Shown: piece by piece, positions 3,803-10,702 of the stretch
How the letters are laid out: each line of letters begins with the position of its first letter
How positions within the stretch are numbered: position 1 is the first letter of the stretch
NCBI RefSeq assembly: GCF_016595275.2
Contig: NZ_JAENIQ020000003.1
Coordinates: forward strand, 310,001-374,000
Length of the DNA: 64,000 bases
Direction: 5' to 3'
DNA from: Corynebacterium pygosceleis
GTDB lineage: Bacteria > Actinomycetota > Actinomycetes > Mycobacteriales > Mycobacteriaceae
Notes under the pieces: model-generated
Seen by the model: only the letters and a program-made list of their open reading frames with translations
Database searches by the model: none
What the model was told of the DNA's origin: nothing
Program-made: the position numbers and the translations under genes

Positions 3803-3871
3803 CCGGCGCCGACTACGACCAGGAGAACTAGACAAATAATGCTGGAAGAAACAACCGAGAGCAGGAAGAAC

Positions 3872-5515
3872 ATGGCGGAGCTGACGATCTCCTCCGACGA
3901 GATCCGTAGCGCGATTGAGAATTACACCTCGAGCTACTCCCCGGAGGCCTCCCGTGAGGAGGTCGGCGTGGTCATTTCGGCGGCTGACGGTATCGCCCAG
4001 GTTTCGGGCCTCCCGTCAGTGATGACGAATGAGCTGCTCGAGTTCCCGGGCGGCGTCATCGGCGTCGCACAGAACCTCGACACCGACCGCGTCGGCGTGG
4101 TTGTCCTGGGTAACTACGAAAGTCTCAAAGAGGGCGACGAAGTTAAGCGGACCGGAGAGGTCCTGTCCATCCCGGTCGGCGACAAGTTCCTCGGCCGCGT
4201 TATCAACCCCCTGGGTGAGCCCATCGACGGCATGGGTGCCATCGAAGCAGAAGAGGACCGTGTCCTCGAGCTTCAGGCCCCCTCCGTGCTGCAGCGTCAG
4301 CCCGTCGAGGAGCCCCTCCAGACCGGCATCAAGGCCATTGATGCGATGACCCCGATCGGCCGTGGTCAGCGTCAGCTGATCATCGGTGACCGTAAGACCG
4401 GCAAGACCGCGGTCTGCCTGGACACGATCCTGAACCAGAAGGCCAACTGGGGGTCCGGCGACGAGAAGAAGCAGGTCCGCTGCATCTACGTCGCCATCGG
4501 ACAGAAGGGTTCCACCATCGCCGGAATCCGGAAGACCCTGGAGGAGCACGGTGCCCTGGAGTACACGACGATCGTCGCGGCTCCCGCATCCGACTCCGCC
4601 GGTTTCAAGTGGCTCGCACCCTTCGCCGGTGCCGCCCTGGGACAGCACTGGATGTACAAGAACAAGCACGTCCTGGTCATCTACGATGACCTGACCAAGC
4701 AGGCTGAGGCATACCGTGCCATCTCCCTGCTGCTGCGCCGCCCGCCGGGCCGCGAGGCCTACCCGGGTGACGTCTTCTACCTGCACTCCCGTCTGCTGGA
4801 GCGTGCCGCGAAGCTGTCCGATGACATGGGTGCCGGTTCGATGACCGCTCTGCCGATCATCGAGACCAAGGCCAACGACGTCTCGGCCTTCATCCCGACC
4901 AACGTCATCTCCATCACCGACGGCCAGGTCTTCCTGGAGTCCGATCTGTTCAACCAGGGCGTTCGCCCCGCCATCAACGTCGGTGTCTCCGTCTCCCGTG
5001 TCGGTGGTGCCGCACAGACCAAGGGCATGAAGAAGGTGTCCGGTTCACTGCGTCTGGACCTCGCCTCCTACCGTGACCTGGAGGCCTTCGCGGCCTTCGC
5101 GTCCGATCTGGATCCGGCGTCCAAGCGTCAGCTGGAACGCGGTCAGCGTCTCGTCGAGCTGCTCAAGCAGTCCGAGAACAACCCGATGGCGGTCGAAGAT
5201 CAGATGGTGTCCATCTGGCTCGCGGGCGAAGGCCACCTCGACAACGTTCCCGTCGAGGATGTCCGTCGCTTCGAGACCGAACTCCACGAGTACCTGCACG
5301 GCAACGCCAGCGAGGTCTACGACCAGATCGCCGGTGGTGCAGCGTTCTCCGACGAGTCGAAGGAGATCCTGGTGTCCGCGACGGAGGACTTCAAGCGCAC
5401 CTTCCAGACCACGGACGGCACCCCGGTGATCAACGAACCCGAGGTCGAGGCAATGGCGGAGGGCGATCTGAAGAAGAACAAGATCACGGTCTCCCGCAAG
5501 TCAGCCAAGAAGTAG
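3872..5515 (+). CDS. atpA: F1Fo ATP synthase subunit alpha
   Basis: Non-catalytic nucleotide-binding subunit of F1. With the start at ATG 3872 it has 547 residues and begins [12 protein letters not shown], matching corynebacterial AtpA. An in-frame ATG at 3839 would add 11 residues but has no ribosome-binding site, while AGGAA at 3863-3867 serves 3872. Visible motifs are the Walker A GDRKTGKT at 172-179, Walker B-like VLVIYDDL at 267-274, and the arginine finger Arg376 in VSVSRVGGA, which reaches into the beta catalytic site. The C-terminal tail is Lys-rich. Confidence 0.97.
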
Positions 5516-5567
5516 GGTCGTGACACGCACCATGACCGTCCTAGGAAAAGAAGGGAGGCGATAGATC

Positions 5568-6548
5568 ATGGCCAATCTTCGAGAACTACGTTCCCGCATC
5601 AAGTCGGTGAACTCGACCAAGAAGATCACCAAGGCCCAGGAGCTCATCGCCACCTCGCGAATCACGAAGGCCCAGCAGCGGGTCGAGGCTTCGATGCCGT
5701 ACGCCGAGGAGATCCACCGTGTGATCGAACGCCTCGCGTCCGCCACCGAACTCGACCACGCGATGCTCCGTGAACGTGAGAACGGACGTCGGGCCGCGAT
5801 TCTCGTGGTGACCAGTGACCGTGGCATGTGCGGCGGCTACAACTACAACGTCTTCAAGAAAACCGCCGAACTGCGCGGCATGCTCGAGGACAAGGGCTAC
5901 GAAGTGGTCCTGTACGTCTCCGGCAACAAGGGACTGAGCTACTACCGTTTCCGCGGCGAGGACATCGCCGGCGCGTGGACCGGGTTCTCCCAGGACCCGG
6001 GATACAAGGAGACCCACGGTATGCGCAGGCACCTGATCGACGGTTTCGTCGCAGGATCCACCGGTACCGCGAAGTGGCGTGAGGGACTGGCGACGCCGGA
6101 GGGTGAACCCATCCGGGGCTTCGACCAGTTGCACGTCGTGTACACCGAGTTCGAGTCCATGCTGACCCAGAACGCCCGGGCGCACCAGCTCCTTCCGATC
6201 GAGCCGATCATCGAGCTCGACCAGATCGAGACCGGGGAAGACATGCTCGCCTCGTCGTCCAACGATATCGAGGCGGACTACGACTTCGAGCCCAGTGCGG
6301 AGGAACTGCTCGACGCCCTGCTTCCGCAGTACGTGTCGCGTGGCCTCTACGCCATGCTCCTCGAAGCCGCGGCCAGTGAGTCCGCGTCCCGACGTACCGC
6401 GATGAAGTCTGCGACCGACAACGCCAACGAGCTGGTCAAGGACCTCTCGCGCGTGGCCAACCAGGCCCGTCAGGCACAGATCACCCAGGAAATCACAGAG
6501 ATCGTCGGTGGCGCGGGAGCGCTCGCCGAAAGCGGAGAAAGTGACTAG
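5568..6548 (+). CDS. atpG: F1Fo ATP synthase subunit gamma
   Basis: Central rotor shaft of F1. The 326-residue protein starts with the conserved helix MANLRELRSRIKSVNSTKKITKAQELI and ends with a second long helix (about residues 250-325) that forms the coiled coil inside the alpha3beta3 ring. It is about 35-40 residues longer than E. coli gamma. Acidic sequence around residues 205-245 accounts for part of this, consistent with the gamma loop insertions known in actinobacteria. GGGAGGCG lies 7-8 bases before ATG 5568. The gene stops three bases before atpD. Confidence 0.96.
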   Translation: MANLRELRSRIKSVNSTKKITKAQELIATSRITKAQQRVEASMPYAEEIHRVIERLASATELDHAMLRERENGRRAAILVVTSDRGMCGGYNYNVFKKTAELRGMLEDKGYEVVLYVSGNKGLSYYRFRGEDIAGAWTGFSQDPGYKETHGMRRHLIDGFVAGSTGTAKWREGLATPEGEPIRGFDQLHVVYTEFESMLTQNARAHQLLPIEPIIELDQIETGEDMLASSSNDIEADYDFEPSAEELLDALLPQYVSRGLYAMLLEAAASESASRRTAMKSATDNANELVKDLSRVANQARQAQITQEITEIVGGAGALAESGESD

Positions 6549-7997
<1,449 letters not shown>

Positions 7998-8010
7998 AAG
8001 GGCGGGTCTC

Positions 8011-8382
8011 ATGGCTGAAATCGCCGCTGAACTGGTCGCCGTGGAACGTAAGTTGTGGTCCGGCAACGCCACGATCGTCACGGCCCAGACCACCGAGGGT
8101 GAGATCGGCGTACTCGCCGGTCACGAGCCGATGCTCGGTCAGCTGATCGAGAACGGTGTCGTGACCATCCGCCCGGCCGAGGGGGACCGTCTGGTCGCCG
8201 CCGTCCAGGGTGGATTCATCTCCGTGTCCAAGGACAAGGTCACCATCCTCGCGGACCACGCCGAATGGGCGTCCGAGGTCGACACCGCCGCCGCGGAGGC
8301 CGCCCTCAACGAGGGCGACCGGGACTCCAGGGCACGCGCTGAAGCCGGACTGCGCGCCGTCCGACGGAGTCAGGAAGGCTGA
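8011..8382 (+). CDS. atpC: F1Fo ATP synthase subunit epsilon
   Basis: A 123-residue epsilon subunit linking gamma to the c-ring and able to inhibit ATP hydrolysis. The N-terminal beta sandwich is clear: [13 protein letters not shown], then [16 protein letters not shown] at about residues 30-45 and [14 protein letters not shown] at about 70-83. The C-terminal helices are short (Ala/Glu/Arg-rich, 84-123). AAGGGCGGG precedes ATG 8011. It closes the operon and is followed by a strong hairpin. Confidence 0.95.
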
Positions 8383-8713: not shown

Positions 8714-9148
8714 GTGGAGTTTCTCTGGTACGGACTGTCCACGTCATTGTGTGTGTTCGTCGTGCTCGCGGGCTGGCGCTTTCTGCGCGTACGGGCCACC
8801 GGATCCGGGATTCTCCTCAGACGCCTGCCCGCCGACGGTGCGCACGGCTGGCGGCACGGGGCGCTGCGCTACTCGGGGGACGGCATCGAGTTCTACAAGC
8901 TCAGGTCCGTCGCTCCGGCCCCGGATCTCCGTTTCCCGCGTACCGGTGCGGAGGTCACGGGTCGCAGGGAACCCGGTGCCGCGGAAACGGCCTTCATGCC
9001 GGCGGGCGTCCGGATCGTGGAACTGGCCGTCAGGGACCGGCGCTACGAACTCGCGCTCGACGCCCAGAGCGAGACCGCGCTGACCGCCTGGATCGAATCC
9101 GCGCCCAGCGCCCGGCAGGAACGGCGTTTCCGGCCGCTCGACCGCTAG
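8714..9148 (+). CDS. DUF2550 membrane-anchored protein
   Basis: A 144-residue protein with a single N-terminal membrane segment (about residues 4-24), then [18 protein letters not shown] and a soluble domain of about 115 residues rich in Arg. It matches the DUF2550 family (mycobacterial Rv1312 type), which sits after atpC in many actinobacteria. Function is unknown. The start is GTG 8714, seven bases after GAGGGAG. The C-terminal domain probably stays on the cytoplasmic side, given the strongly basic residues after the helix; that topology is inference. Confidence 0.8.
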
Positions 9149-9195: not shown

Positions 9196-9927
9196 ATGCG
9201 ACTTGTCATTGCCCGTTGTTCCGTTGATTACGTCGGACGGCTGGAGGCGCACCTCCCGTCCGCCGACAGGCTGCTGCTCGTCAAGGCCGACGGTTCCGTG
9301 TCGGTGCACGCCGACGACCGCGCCTACAAGCCCCTGAACTGGATGACGCCACCCTGCACCCTCCGCGAGGAGAACGTGGAGGTGGAGATCGAGGGCGGCA
9401 CCGGTGGCGGTGGGGAGGTGGACCCCGAGGCTGACGCACCCCGCAACACCCTCTGGATCGTGGAGAACTCCAAGGGGGAGCAACTCCGGATCACCATCGA
9501 GAAGATCCATTCCGACGTCACCCATGAGTTCGGTCAGGATCCGGGGTTGATCAAGGACGGTGTCGAGGCGCATCTCCAGGAACTTCTCGCCGAACAGATC
9601 ACCACTCTCGGTGACGGCTACACACTCGTCCGCAGGGAGTACCCCACCGCGATCGGACCGGTCGACATCCTGTGCCGTGACGCCGACGGGGCCGCCGTCG
9701 CCGTGGAGATCAAACGACGGGGGGAGATCGACGGCGTCGAGCAGCTGACACGATACCTCGACCTGTTGAACCGGGATGAGCTTCTCGCCCCGGTTCAGGG
9801 GGTCTTCGCCGCACAGCAGATCAAACCCCAGGCACGTACCCTGGCCGAGGACCGGGGGATCAGGTGTGTCGTCCTCGACTATCAGGCGCTCCGGGGCACG
9901 GAGTCAGCTGAACTCCGTCTGTTCTGA
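9196..9927 (+). CDS. nucS: Mismatch-specific endonuclease NucS (EndoMS)
   Basis: NucS cuts both strands at G-T, G-G and T-T mismatches. It is the core of the non-canonical mismatch repair of actinobacteria lacking MutS/MutL, and it works with the DnaN sliding clamp. The 243-residue protein starts [16 protein letters not shown]. The N-terminal DNA-binding/dimerisation domain covers about 1-110. The RecB-like nuclease domain carries Asp157 (GPVDILC) and Glu171-Ile-Lys173. The C-terminal RLF tail is where the clamp-binding motif lies in corynebacterial NucS. An upstream in-frame extension exists, but ATG 9196 gives the family length and has its own TAGACT box seven bases away. Confidence 0.95.
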
Positions 9928-10241
9928 TGCCGCGCCGCAACCGTTCCAGAGGCGGTCGCCGTTCCGGTGGGCGGCGGAGTGAACCGACGGTGGCCCCTCT
10001 GCCCCGCGACGGCGCGGTCTACTACGGCACCCAGGAGATGCCCGGACCGTCGTACACCGGTGGTGCCCCGCACCTCGTGCGGAGGATCGGGGCGGGACGC
10101 GCCACGAAGTTCTACGTGTGCCCCGGGTGCAACCAGAACATTCCTCCGGGCGTCGCCCACATCGTCGCATGGCCGAAAGACTTCGGACGGGGTGCCGATG
10201 ACCGGAGGCACTGGCACCGTCACTGCTGGGACAGGCGCTAG
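9927..10241 (+). CDS. Small zinc-binding-type protein translationally coupled to nucS
   Basis: A 104-residue protein whose ATG overlaps the nucS stop (TGATG), so the two are translationally coupled. The N-terminus is a very basic tail ([18 protein letters not shown]). The C-terminal half has C65-x2-C68, H78, and then H95, H97, H99 and C100 in RRHWHRHCW, a plausible Zn site or a degenerate HNH-like fold. Similar small proteins, sometimes auto-annotated as ATP/GTP-binding, occur beside nucS in other actinobacteria as far as I recall. The basic tail and its partner gene suggest nucleic-acid binding, but no function is known. Its stop shares CTAG with the convergent mce gene. Confidence 0.75.
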   Translation: MPRRNRSRGGRRSGGRRSEPTVAPLPRDGAVYYGTQEMPGPSYTGGAPHLVRRIGAGRATKFYVCPGCNQNIPPGVAHIVAWPKDFGRGADDRRHWHRHCWDRR

Positions 10242-10702
10242 TCCGCCGCGACGGGCTCCGTCAGTTCGAGCAGGACACCACCGGCGTCCCTGGGGTGCAC
10301 GAAATTGATCCTGGCTCCACCGGTGCCGCGTTTCGGCTCCGGGTAGAGGAGACGGACCCCGAGACCCCGGAGATGTTCACACAGCGCGTCCATGTTGTCG
10401 GTGCGCAGACACATCTGCTGGAGCCCCGGCCCCTTCTTCTCCAGGAACGTCGCGATGGTCGAGTCTTCGTTCAGGGGCGCGAGCAGCTGGATCACCCCGG
10501 CCGTCGGGGCGGTGGCGTCGGTGTCGGCGGGGCCGACCATCGCCTCGACGACGCCCTGCTCCTCGTTCGTCTCCTGGTGGAGGTTCACCCAGCCGAAGGC
10601 ACTCCGGTAGAACTCGACGGCCGCATCGAGATCGGGGACCGCGATGCCGACGTGGTCGAGGCAGGTGACGTATTCGTGGGGAATGTCGATGGAGTGGTTC
10701 AT
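10238..10702 (-). CDS. mce: Methylmalonyl-CoA epimerase (VOC family)
   Basis: Interconverts the (2R) and (2S) forms of methylmalonyl-CoA in propionate metabolism, feeding B12-dependent methylmalonyl-CoA mutase. The 154-residue protein has two VOC beta-alpha-beta-beta-beta modules. Expected metal-ligand regions are His17 in LDHVGIAV, Gln in GVIQLLAP and Glu near the C-terminus (VLLELTEP). The third classical ligand region reads GPGLQQMCLRT, with Gln where the Propionibacterium enzyme has His; I recall GIQQ in mycobacterial homologues too. The start is ATG 10702. A longer frame to 10795 would cross the divergent promoter. A TAAAAT box lies eight bases upstream, so it may be leaderless. Confidence 0.87.
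   Translation of the reverse strand: MNHSIDIPHEYVTCLDHVGIAVPDLDAAVEFYRSAFGWVNLHQETNEEQGVVEAMVGPADTDATAPTAGVIQLLAPLNEDSTIATFLEKKGPGLQQMCLRTDNMDALCEHLRGLGVRLLYPEPKRGTGGARINFVHPRDAGGVLLELTEPVAAD

Follow-up and report, generated by a model that had tools for sequence, protein, structure and literature searches.

In the 64,000 nt window analyzed here (positions 310,001–374,000 of contig NZ_JAENIQ020000003.1 from Corynebacterium pygosceleis), the gene for the mismatch endonuclease NucS (nucS) is followed by a gene for a small, basic protein of 104 aa, designated here the CCHC protein after its putative zinc ligands. A sequence-only reading of this locus had proposed that the protein is a candidate accessory factor of NucS in non-canonical mismatch repair. 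Our comparisons weaken that proposal, and the explanation that we favor, with somewhat better than even confidence, is that the CCHC protein is a nucleic-acid-binding zinc protein with a housekeeping role of its own, for which NucS is not required.

Lineages with only one of the two genes amount to natural knock-outs, and their distribution directly tests the idea of a NucS partner. In a sample of 196 genomes of the class, each at least 90% complete, both genes were present in 157, only the CCHC gene in 19, only nucS in 19 and neither in one, which yields no positive association (odds ratio, OR, 0.43; two-sided p 0.70, one-sided p 0.90). The genomes with only the CCHC gene belong mainly to one family (f94) of 17 genomes of 1.2–2.2 Mb, all of which carry it; nucS is missing from 16 of them, and the 17th was scored as containing nucS on a weak hit (E 2.8e-7). 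The reverse set comprises genus g246 of family f21 (12 genomes), genus g5 of the family of C. pygosceleis (two genomes) and five others; a diverged copy was sought as a CCHC motif around nucS in six loci (L140–L144 and L151) and was not found, while the positive controls L145 and L132 carry the gene. Within family f102, one genome (G483) has the genes as a tight pair and another (G475) has the CCHC gene but no nucS. In a wider sample of 236 genomes of the phylum the association is positive, with both genes in 52, only the CCHC gene in 42, only nucS in 15 and neither in 127 (OR 10.5, kinship ignored), and families are mostly of one kind: the 14 rows of family f29 with the CCHC gene all lack nucS, and only one of the eight nucS genomes of family f43 contains the CCHC gene. 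We considered that MutS might replace NucS in carriers devoid of nucS, and rejected it, because MutS_V, at an E threshold of 1e-10, was found in none of 35 genomes tested, 31 of which were CCHC carriers without nucS. Carriage of the CCHC gene tracks neither known mismatch repair system. The absence of an association within the class, the retention of the gene without nucS in family f94 and the reverse condition in g246 and g5 argue against a dedicated NucS accessory factor. Separately, none of the 17 genomes of family f94 contains MutS_V and 16 of them lack NucS, the last having only the weak hit, and this family appears to be a group without known mismatch repair.

The CCHC gene (positions 9927–10241, plus strand) is single-copy in its own genome, and we consider it more than a chance open reading frame (ORF) because homologs with 16 invariant columns were found across the phylum. 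The family is present in 176 of the 196 class genomes and in 94 of the 236 phylum genomes, and a single-sequence search at the level of the order retrieved it from 133 of 150 genomes. Scanning named genomes gave at least 597 stretches, at least 576 of them encoding relatives of the CCHC protein, from which the best 80 were retained, a set hence biased to near relatives. The invariant columns in a 36-row alignment include C65, P66, G67, C68, G75, H78, R93, R94, H95, W96, H97, C100, and W101, and K61 is nearly invariant. The four putative zinc ligands (C65, C68, H97, and C100) are thus conserved in 36 of 36 members, always with a spacing of 26–32 residues between ligands 2 and 3, suggesting that the protein binds zinc. 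In the window protein these ligands follow the pattern C-x2-C-x28-H-x2-C, within a longer arrangement C65-x2-C68 ... H78 ... H95-W-H97-x2-C100. They are contributed by a putative zinc knuckle, C65-P-G-C68 (10119–10130; ligands 1 and 2), and by the RRHWH-x2-CW block from R93 to W101 (10203–10229; ligands 3 and 4), with H78 (10158–10160) in between. The pattern C-x2-C...H...HxHxHC of the sequence-only reading therefore exists, and C65, C68, H78, H95, H97, and C100 are invariant in all 36 rows, but its third terminal His, H99, is not conserved. Likewise, the Arg-rich tail noted in that reading is found at the N-terminus (residues 1–18, with 8 Arg; 9927–9980, modeled with low confidence), whereas the Arg-rich C-terminal tail of many other members is almost absent from the window protein, which ends in DRR. 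The calculated isoelectric point (pI) is 11.3 for the window protein and 8.6–11.6, with a median of 10.8, for the 36 aligned members, a few of which are shortened.

Neither the CCHC protein nor the 36 aligned members had an acceptable family match in Pfam, NCBIfam or PHROGs, a family profile search against the PDB gave no match, and the window protein had none among phage records. Scattered weak hits of the 36 members (Prok-RING_1, best E 0.0078; slr0373_blue, 0.0009 in one member; phrog_3786, best 0.0013, in eight members) were judged to be chance zinc-motif similarity. A phmmer search of the PDB with the single sequence was also judged to give chance similarity: the best 60 of 119 rows, starting at an E of 0.026, were antibody light chains or similar antibody entries. 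A single member, of Streptomyces type, had matches to two PLSDB records, of which one was the size of a chromosome. A tblastn comparison with the family detected nothing in locus L119, though the profile retrieved it with an E of 1.1e-11. Our literature search, which did not reach bioRxiv preprints or the majority of subscription papers, found no functional study of the family. The CCHC protein is a conserved product of 176 of 196 class genomes, kept in genomes as small as 1.2 Mb, for which the family libraries searched hold no model.

Within 1.5 kb of the CCHC gene, nucS is found in the eight loci examined from the family of C. pygosceleis, as well as in the window, always codirectional and adjacent, whereas it is found in none of 21 loci that represent the rest of the order. 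Wider flanks of the best 80 named loci contained nucS in 76 and lacked it in four; in 36 of these 80 the genes run in the same direction and are no more than 200 bp apart, in six they are codirectional but farther apart, and in 34 they are divergent (two at less than 1 kb and 32 at 1.9–6.4 kb). Distances in the class sample, here and below, refer to the matches listed, among which 120 genomes have places for both genes. They lie within 8 kb in 97 genomes, farther apart on one contig in 13 (11 kb to 1.8 Mb) and on different contigs in 10, and the 97 close pairs include 31 codirectional ones and 66 on opposite strands. A gap below 200 bp occurs in 17 of the 120 genomes, corresponding to 14 of 15 from the same family as the window and to 3 of 105 others (families f99, f100, and f102), and a further tight codirectional pair occurs in Tessaracoccus (locus L070); the tight pairing is thus usual within the family of C. 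pygosceleis and is not unique to one lineage. In the phylum sample, 20 of the 21 class genomes with both genes have them 5.2 kb apart or less. Outside of the class, both genes coincide in 31 genomes, in five of them on one contig but always more than 200 kb apart and in 26 on different contigs, many of these being draft assemblies.

We compared the surroundings of the CCHC gene using as neighbors the genes of the window itself, the Pfam-named genes of loci L047, L061, L112, and L115, and tblastn matches, with atpG, atpD, and atpC serving as markers; several ORF clusters of this comparison were antisense or GC-rich artefacts and were not used. In five loci from family f94 with no nucS in the locus (L132–L136), the CCHC gene is near murA in five, near ATP synthase genes in four and near ybbN in three. 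Extending the set to eight loci without nucS (L132–L139; the genome of L136 has only the weak hit), murA is near in six and ATP synthase in four. A further 20 loci compared comprise seven of a cyclophilin/mce type, eight of an rplS type and five (L118, L119, L120, L129, and L131) that fit neither. In the seven of the first type (L112, L113, L114, L116, L126, L127, and L130), which come from outside the class and whose genomes contain nucS elsewhere, the CCHC gene is near a cyclophilin gene in all seven, mce in five, a 3-hydroxyacyl-CoA dehydrogenase gene (3HCDH) in four, murA in four and ATP synthase in three. Those of the second type (L115, L117, L121–L125, and L128) have it near rplS in all eight and near yraN, enoyl-CoA hydratase and yifB/dprA in six each. 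As a separate observation, in six of these (L115, L122–L125, and L128) the CCHC gene is near yraN (UPF0102), with yifB and dprA also near in five of the six; the Pfam model for yraN also matches NucS weakly (E 0.011). The class-wide closeness of the CCHC gene to nucS is most simply explained as an inherited neighborhood, because where nucS is not nearby the CCHC gene often keeps its atp/murA/ybbN or mce/3HCDH surroundings. Additionally, over 30 loci the partial correlation of distances with the CCHC gene was 0.16 for nucS, versus 0.16 for mce and 0.21 for ybbN, leaving no excess for nucS once mce and ybbN were controlled.

Several results weigh against a role independent of NucS. The proximity of the two genes within the class is striking, with 97 of 120 genomes having them within 8 kb, 76 of the best 80 named loci hold nucS, and the CCHC gene lies downstream of nucS in 31 of the 31 codirectional cases within 8 kb, a constant order that may reflect selection for the two genes staying together and a functional tie. 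Outside of the class, the phylum sample retains an association (both genes in 31 genomes, only the CCHC gene in 42, only nucS in 15, neither in 127; OR 6.2, p 1.7e-7, kinship ignored). The partial correlation with nucS also reached 0.73 when a single control was used, either mce (44 loci) or 3HCDH (35 loci), although 3HCDH is a poor one, its distances correlating with neither gene. Finally, treble clefs, the fold predicted below, mediate protein-protein contacts too, and the binding of zinc and nucleic acids by the CCHC protein is a prediction from its sequence and models.

In the explanation that we favor, the basic tails of the CCHC protein would make non-specific contacts with phosphates, while a conserved basic and aromatic face, formed by the invariant H78, R93, R94, W96, and W101 and the nearly invariant K61, would read nucleic-acid structure, in a housekeeping function independent of NucS. 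Its nearness to nucS would derive from an old chromosomal neighborhood containing, in varying order, ATP synthase, murA, 3HCDH, the CCHC gene, mce, ybbN, and glgB, into or out of which nucS would have moved. In the family of C. pygosceleis, and sporadically elsewhere, both genes would have become codirectional and adjacent and are, as a consequence, probably cotranscribed there, with occasional translational coupling. In agreement with the sequence-only reading, the start codon of the CCHC gene overlaps the stop codon of nucS: the junction is TGATG (9925–9929, plus strand), in which the nucS stop (9925–9927) and the ATG (9927–9929) have one base in common. A one-base overlap was found in 9 of 51 codirectional loci, counting TAATG cases and the window, that is, likewise in 8 of the other 50.

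AlphaFold2 models built from 10 and 36 alignment rows had a mean predicted local distance difference test score (pLDDT) of 75 and 79, with values of 90–96 for residues 51–80 and block means of 48–61 for residues 1–30, in the N-terminal tail. The models predict a treble clef, on weak scores. All Foldseek matches to the PDB had an E above 0.1 (0.26 or more for the rows with a PARP-type fold); among the top 20, zinc fingers from PARP1 and DNA ligase III occupied 16 rows with the first model and 14 with the second, the rest being C1, RING and PIM1 kinase entries. With VIA-align, the Z scores were 3.0–4.9 for PARP and ligase III chains, 5.0–5.2 for the C1 domain of MgcRacGAP, which was the top row, 4.1–4.2 for RING and a weak 2.4–3.2 for chains of ribosome entries whose protein the rows do not name. 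Given that the fold is small and common, these scores are middling, and the many PDB entries of PARP1 mean that its rows are not independent. Together with the invariant CCHC set and the high pI, the model supports, as a prediction, the earlier description of a basic zinc-type protein that probably binds nucleic acids. At the sequence level, PF00645 did not match the CCHC gene in a search of its own genome up to an E of 10, the sole row being some 2 kb away inside atpD (11.9 bits, cut-off 39.3), nor was it among the 16 families matched by the 36 aligned members. An hhalign comparison of the family with PARP1 Zn2 and Zn1 was weak (P 0.031 and 0.077; probability 1.6 and 0.7%; 28–29% identity over 39 and 34 columns, respectively), and homology to the PARP fingers thus lacks sequence support.

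The possibility that the CCHC protein is an accessory of NucS, expressed with it and helping to process mismatches by binding NucS or the cut or nicked DNA, seems to us quite improbable. In its favor are the adjacency and orientation described above for the family of C. pygosceleis, the tight pairs in other families, the constant downstream order and the one-base overlaps. Moreover, Rv1322 is named in a list of uncharacterized NucS-associated proteins (PMC12892979). In M. smegmatis, the gene numbered next to nucS (MSMEG_4923) is MSMEG_4922, which is listed among deletions in PMC6299477. Judging by position and locus numbering, both are very likely orthologs of the CCHC gene, which sits between nucS and mce in the mycobacterial loci L081 and L088; SCO5384, which we considered as the Streptomyces ortholog, was wrong, since sco5384–5382 is treated as a regulator-transporter set (PMC11272600). 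A possible NucS partner is discussed and left open in PMC11551767, but the same source states, on the strength of its own results, that mismatch recognition by NucS in vivo can proceed without such a partner. Against an accessory role also stand the one-sided absences, common in both directions, the carriers lacking both NucS and MutS, the coexistence in family f102 of a tight pair and a nucS-less carrier and the lack of excess rate covariation against mce and ybbN together; NucS, the only one of the two proteins sought there, is also present in control genomes outside the phylum. Our literature search returned no data on a mutator phenotype or NucS contact of the CCHC protein, nor anything on the function of Rv1322 or MSMEG_4922, and PMC12649562, PMC11109965, and PMC5290159, searched for mentions of operons and neighboring genes, had nothing on the CCHC gene. 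The last of these describes a screen of about 11,000 transposon mutants with a single hypermutable insertion, in nucS (PMC5290159). Assuming a gene of 300 bp and a genome of 7 Mb, the chance of a hit was about 0.38, so the absence of the CCHC gene from that screen tells little.

Two alternatives are sharper forms of the housekeeping role that we favor, and their likelihoods overlap with it. A stand-alone bacterial PARP-type finger, recognizing DNA nicks or ends in general DNA metabolism, would fit the PARP1 and ligase III chains among the top structural matches and the hhalign alignment, which pairs C65, C68, H97, and C100 with the ligands of PARP1 Zn2. The same alignment places H78 on Arg138, a residue of PARP1 Zn2 that, when replaced by Ile, leaves the finger unable to bind DNA, and the 26–32 ligand spacing falls inside the range given for PARP-like zinc fingers that bind DNA breaks (both from PMC3094755). 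Nevertheless, the window protein has His at that position, C1 and RING domains score about equally well, and the Foldseek, PF00645 and hhalign results are those given above; on balance we regard a PARP-type finger as unlikely. Distinctly improbable is its extension to a phylum-wide set of free-standing PARP-type nick or end sensors, without PARP or ligase, that in the family of C. pygosceleis would have been wired to NucS, the sensor being made together with the break-making enzyme. An RNA- or ribosome-associated zinc protein is, in our opinion, rather unlikely. It would agree with a small, very basic, single-zinc protein kept in streamlined genomes of 1.2–1.5 Mb, with the position near rplS in 8 of the 20 further loci (joined in L115 by rimM and trmD), with the weak matches to ribosome-entry chains and with a weak NCBIfam L24e hit (E 0.081) in one of the 36 members. 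Conversely, no sequence match exceeded the cut-off, the neighborhoods vary by group and the rplS region also contains yraN, yifB, and dprA, and the presence of MSMEG_4922 among the deletions would make the gene non-essential in M. smegmatis, if it is the ortholog. We consider very unlikely that the protein is an adaptor between proteins, with a treble clef of the C1 or RING kind and no direct role with nucleic acids, as the top VIA-align row and the RING row could suggest: C1 and RING folds carry two zinc sites, the CCHC family has one conserved set, and its pI is very high. Binuclear treble clefs are covered in PMC4999995.

Upstream of the CCHC gene, nucS (9196–9927, plus strand) encodes EndoMS/NucS of 243 aa, as identified with PF01939 (E 1.6e-42), PF21003 (E 4.3e-30), and NF002876 (405.6 bits, cut-off 252). 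This NucS is longer than the 224 positions of the NCBIfam model, the excess resembling a Gly-rich and acidic insertion between the N-terminal and catalytic domains. nucS is preceded by a gene for a DUF2550 protein (8714–9148, plus strand; PF10739, E 5.3e-38) and by a run of ORFs (3839–8382, plus strand) that form part of the conserved neighborhood and that we take, from their sequences, to be the ATP synthase genes atpA, atpG, atpD, and atpC. The order atpG-atpD-atpC-DUF2550-nucS-CCHC gene and the closest relatives are found in named Corynebacterium records (loci L031–L038). Downstream lies a convergent gene for methylmalonyl-CoA epimerase (10238–10702, minus strand; TIGR03081, 137.3 bits, cut-off 114.95), whose stop codon overlaps that of the CCHC gene in the sequence CTAG (10238–10241), leaving no space for an intervening terminator. 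In a Streptomyces locus (L047, 6284–6676, plus strand), a 130-aa protein matching the Pfam family KH_NucS_shadow (E 5.9e-66) is encoded divergently beside nucS, and related ORFs cluster with it in 7 of 40 compared loci, including Actinomadura, constituting a second unexplained small neighbor of nucS.

With the PARP-like fingers of PF00645 (PARP1 Zn1 and Zn2, DNA ligase III, and plant ZDP), the CCHC protein shares a single CCHC set, the spacing between ligands 2 and 3, a modeled treble clef and a basic character. It differs from them in having no match to the hidden Markov model, no significant profile match and no further domains, as well as in the His in place of Arg138 of PARP1 Zn2 and in an HWH sequence where the PARP fingers have WYH at ligand 3. 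The C1 and RING treble clefs are similar to the modeled zinc core, with two zinc sites instead of one conserved set, and KH_NucS_shadow (PF20704), also a small unexplained neighbor of nucS in Streptomyces, is a separate Pfam family. Should the CCHC protein bind broken DNA, the PARP-type fingers would be extended to a stand-alone bacterial form.
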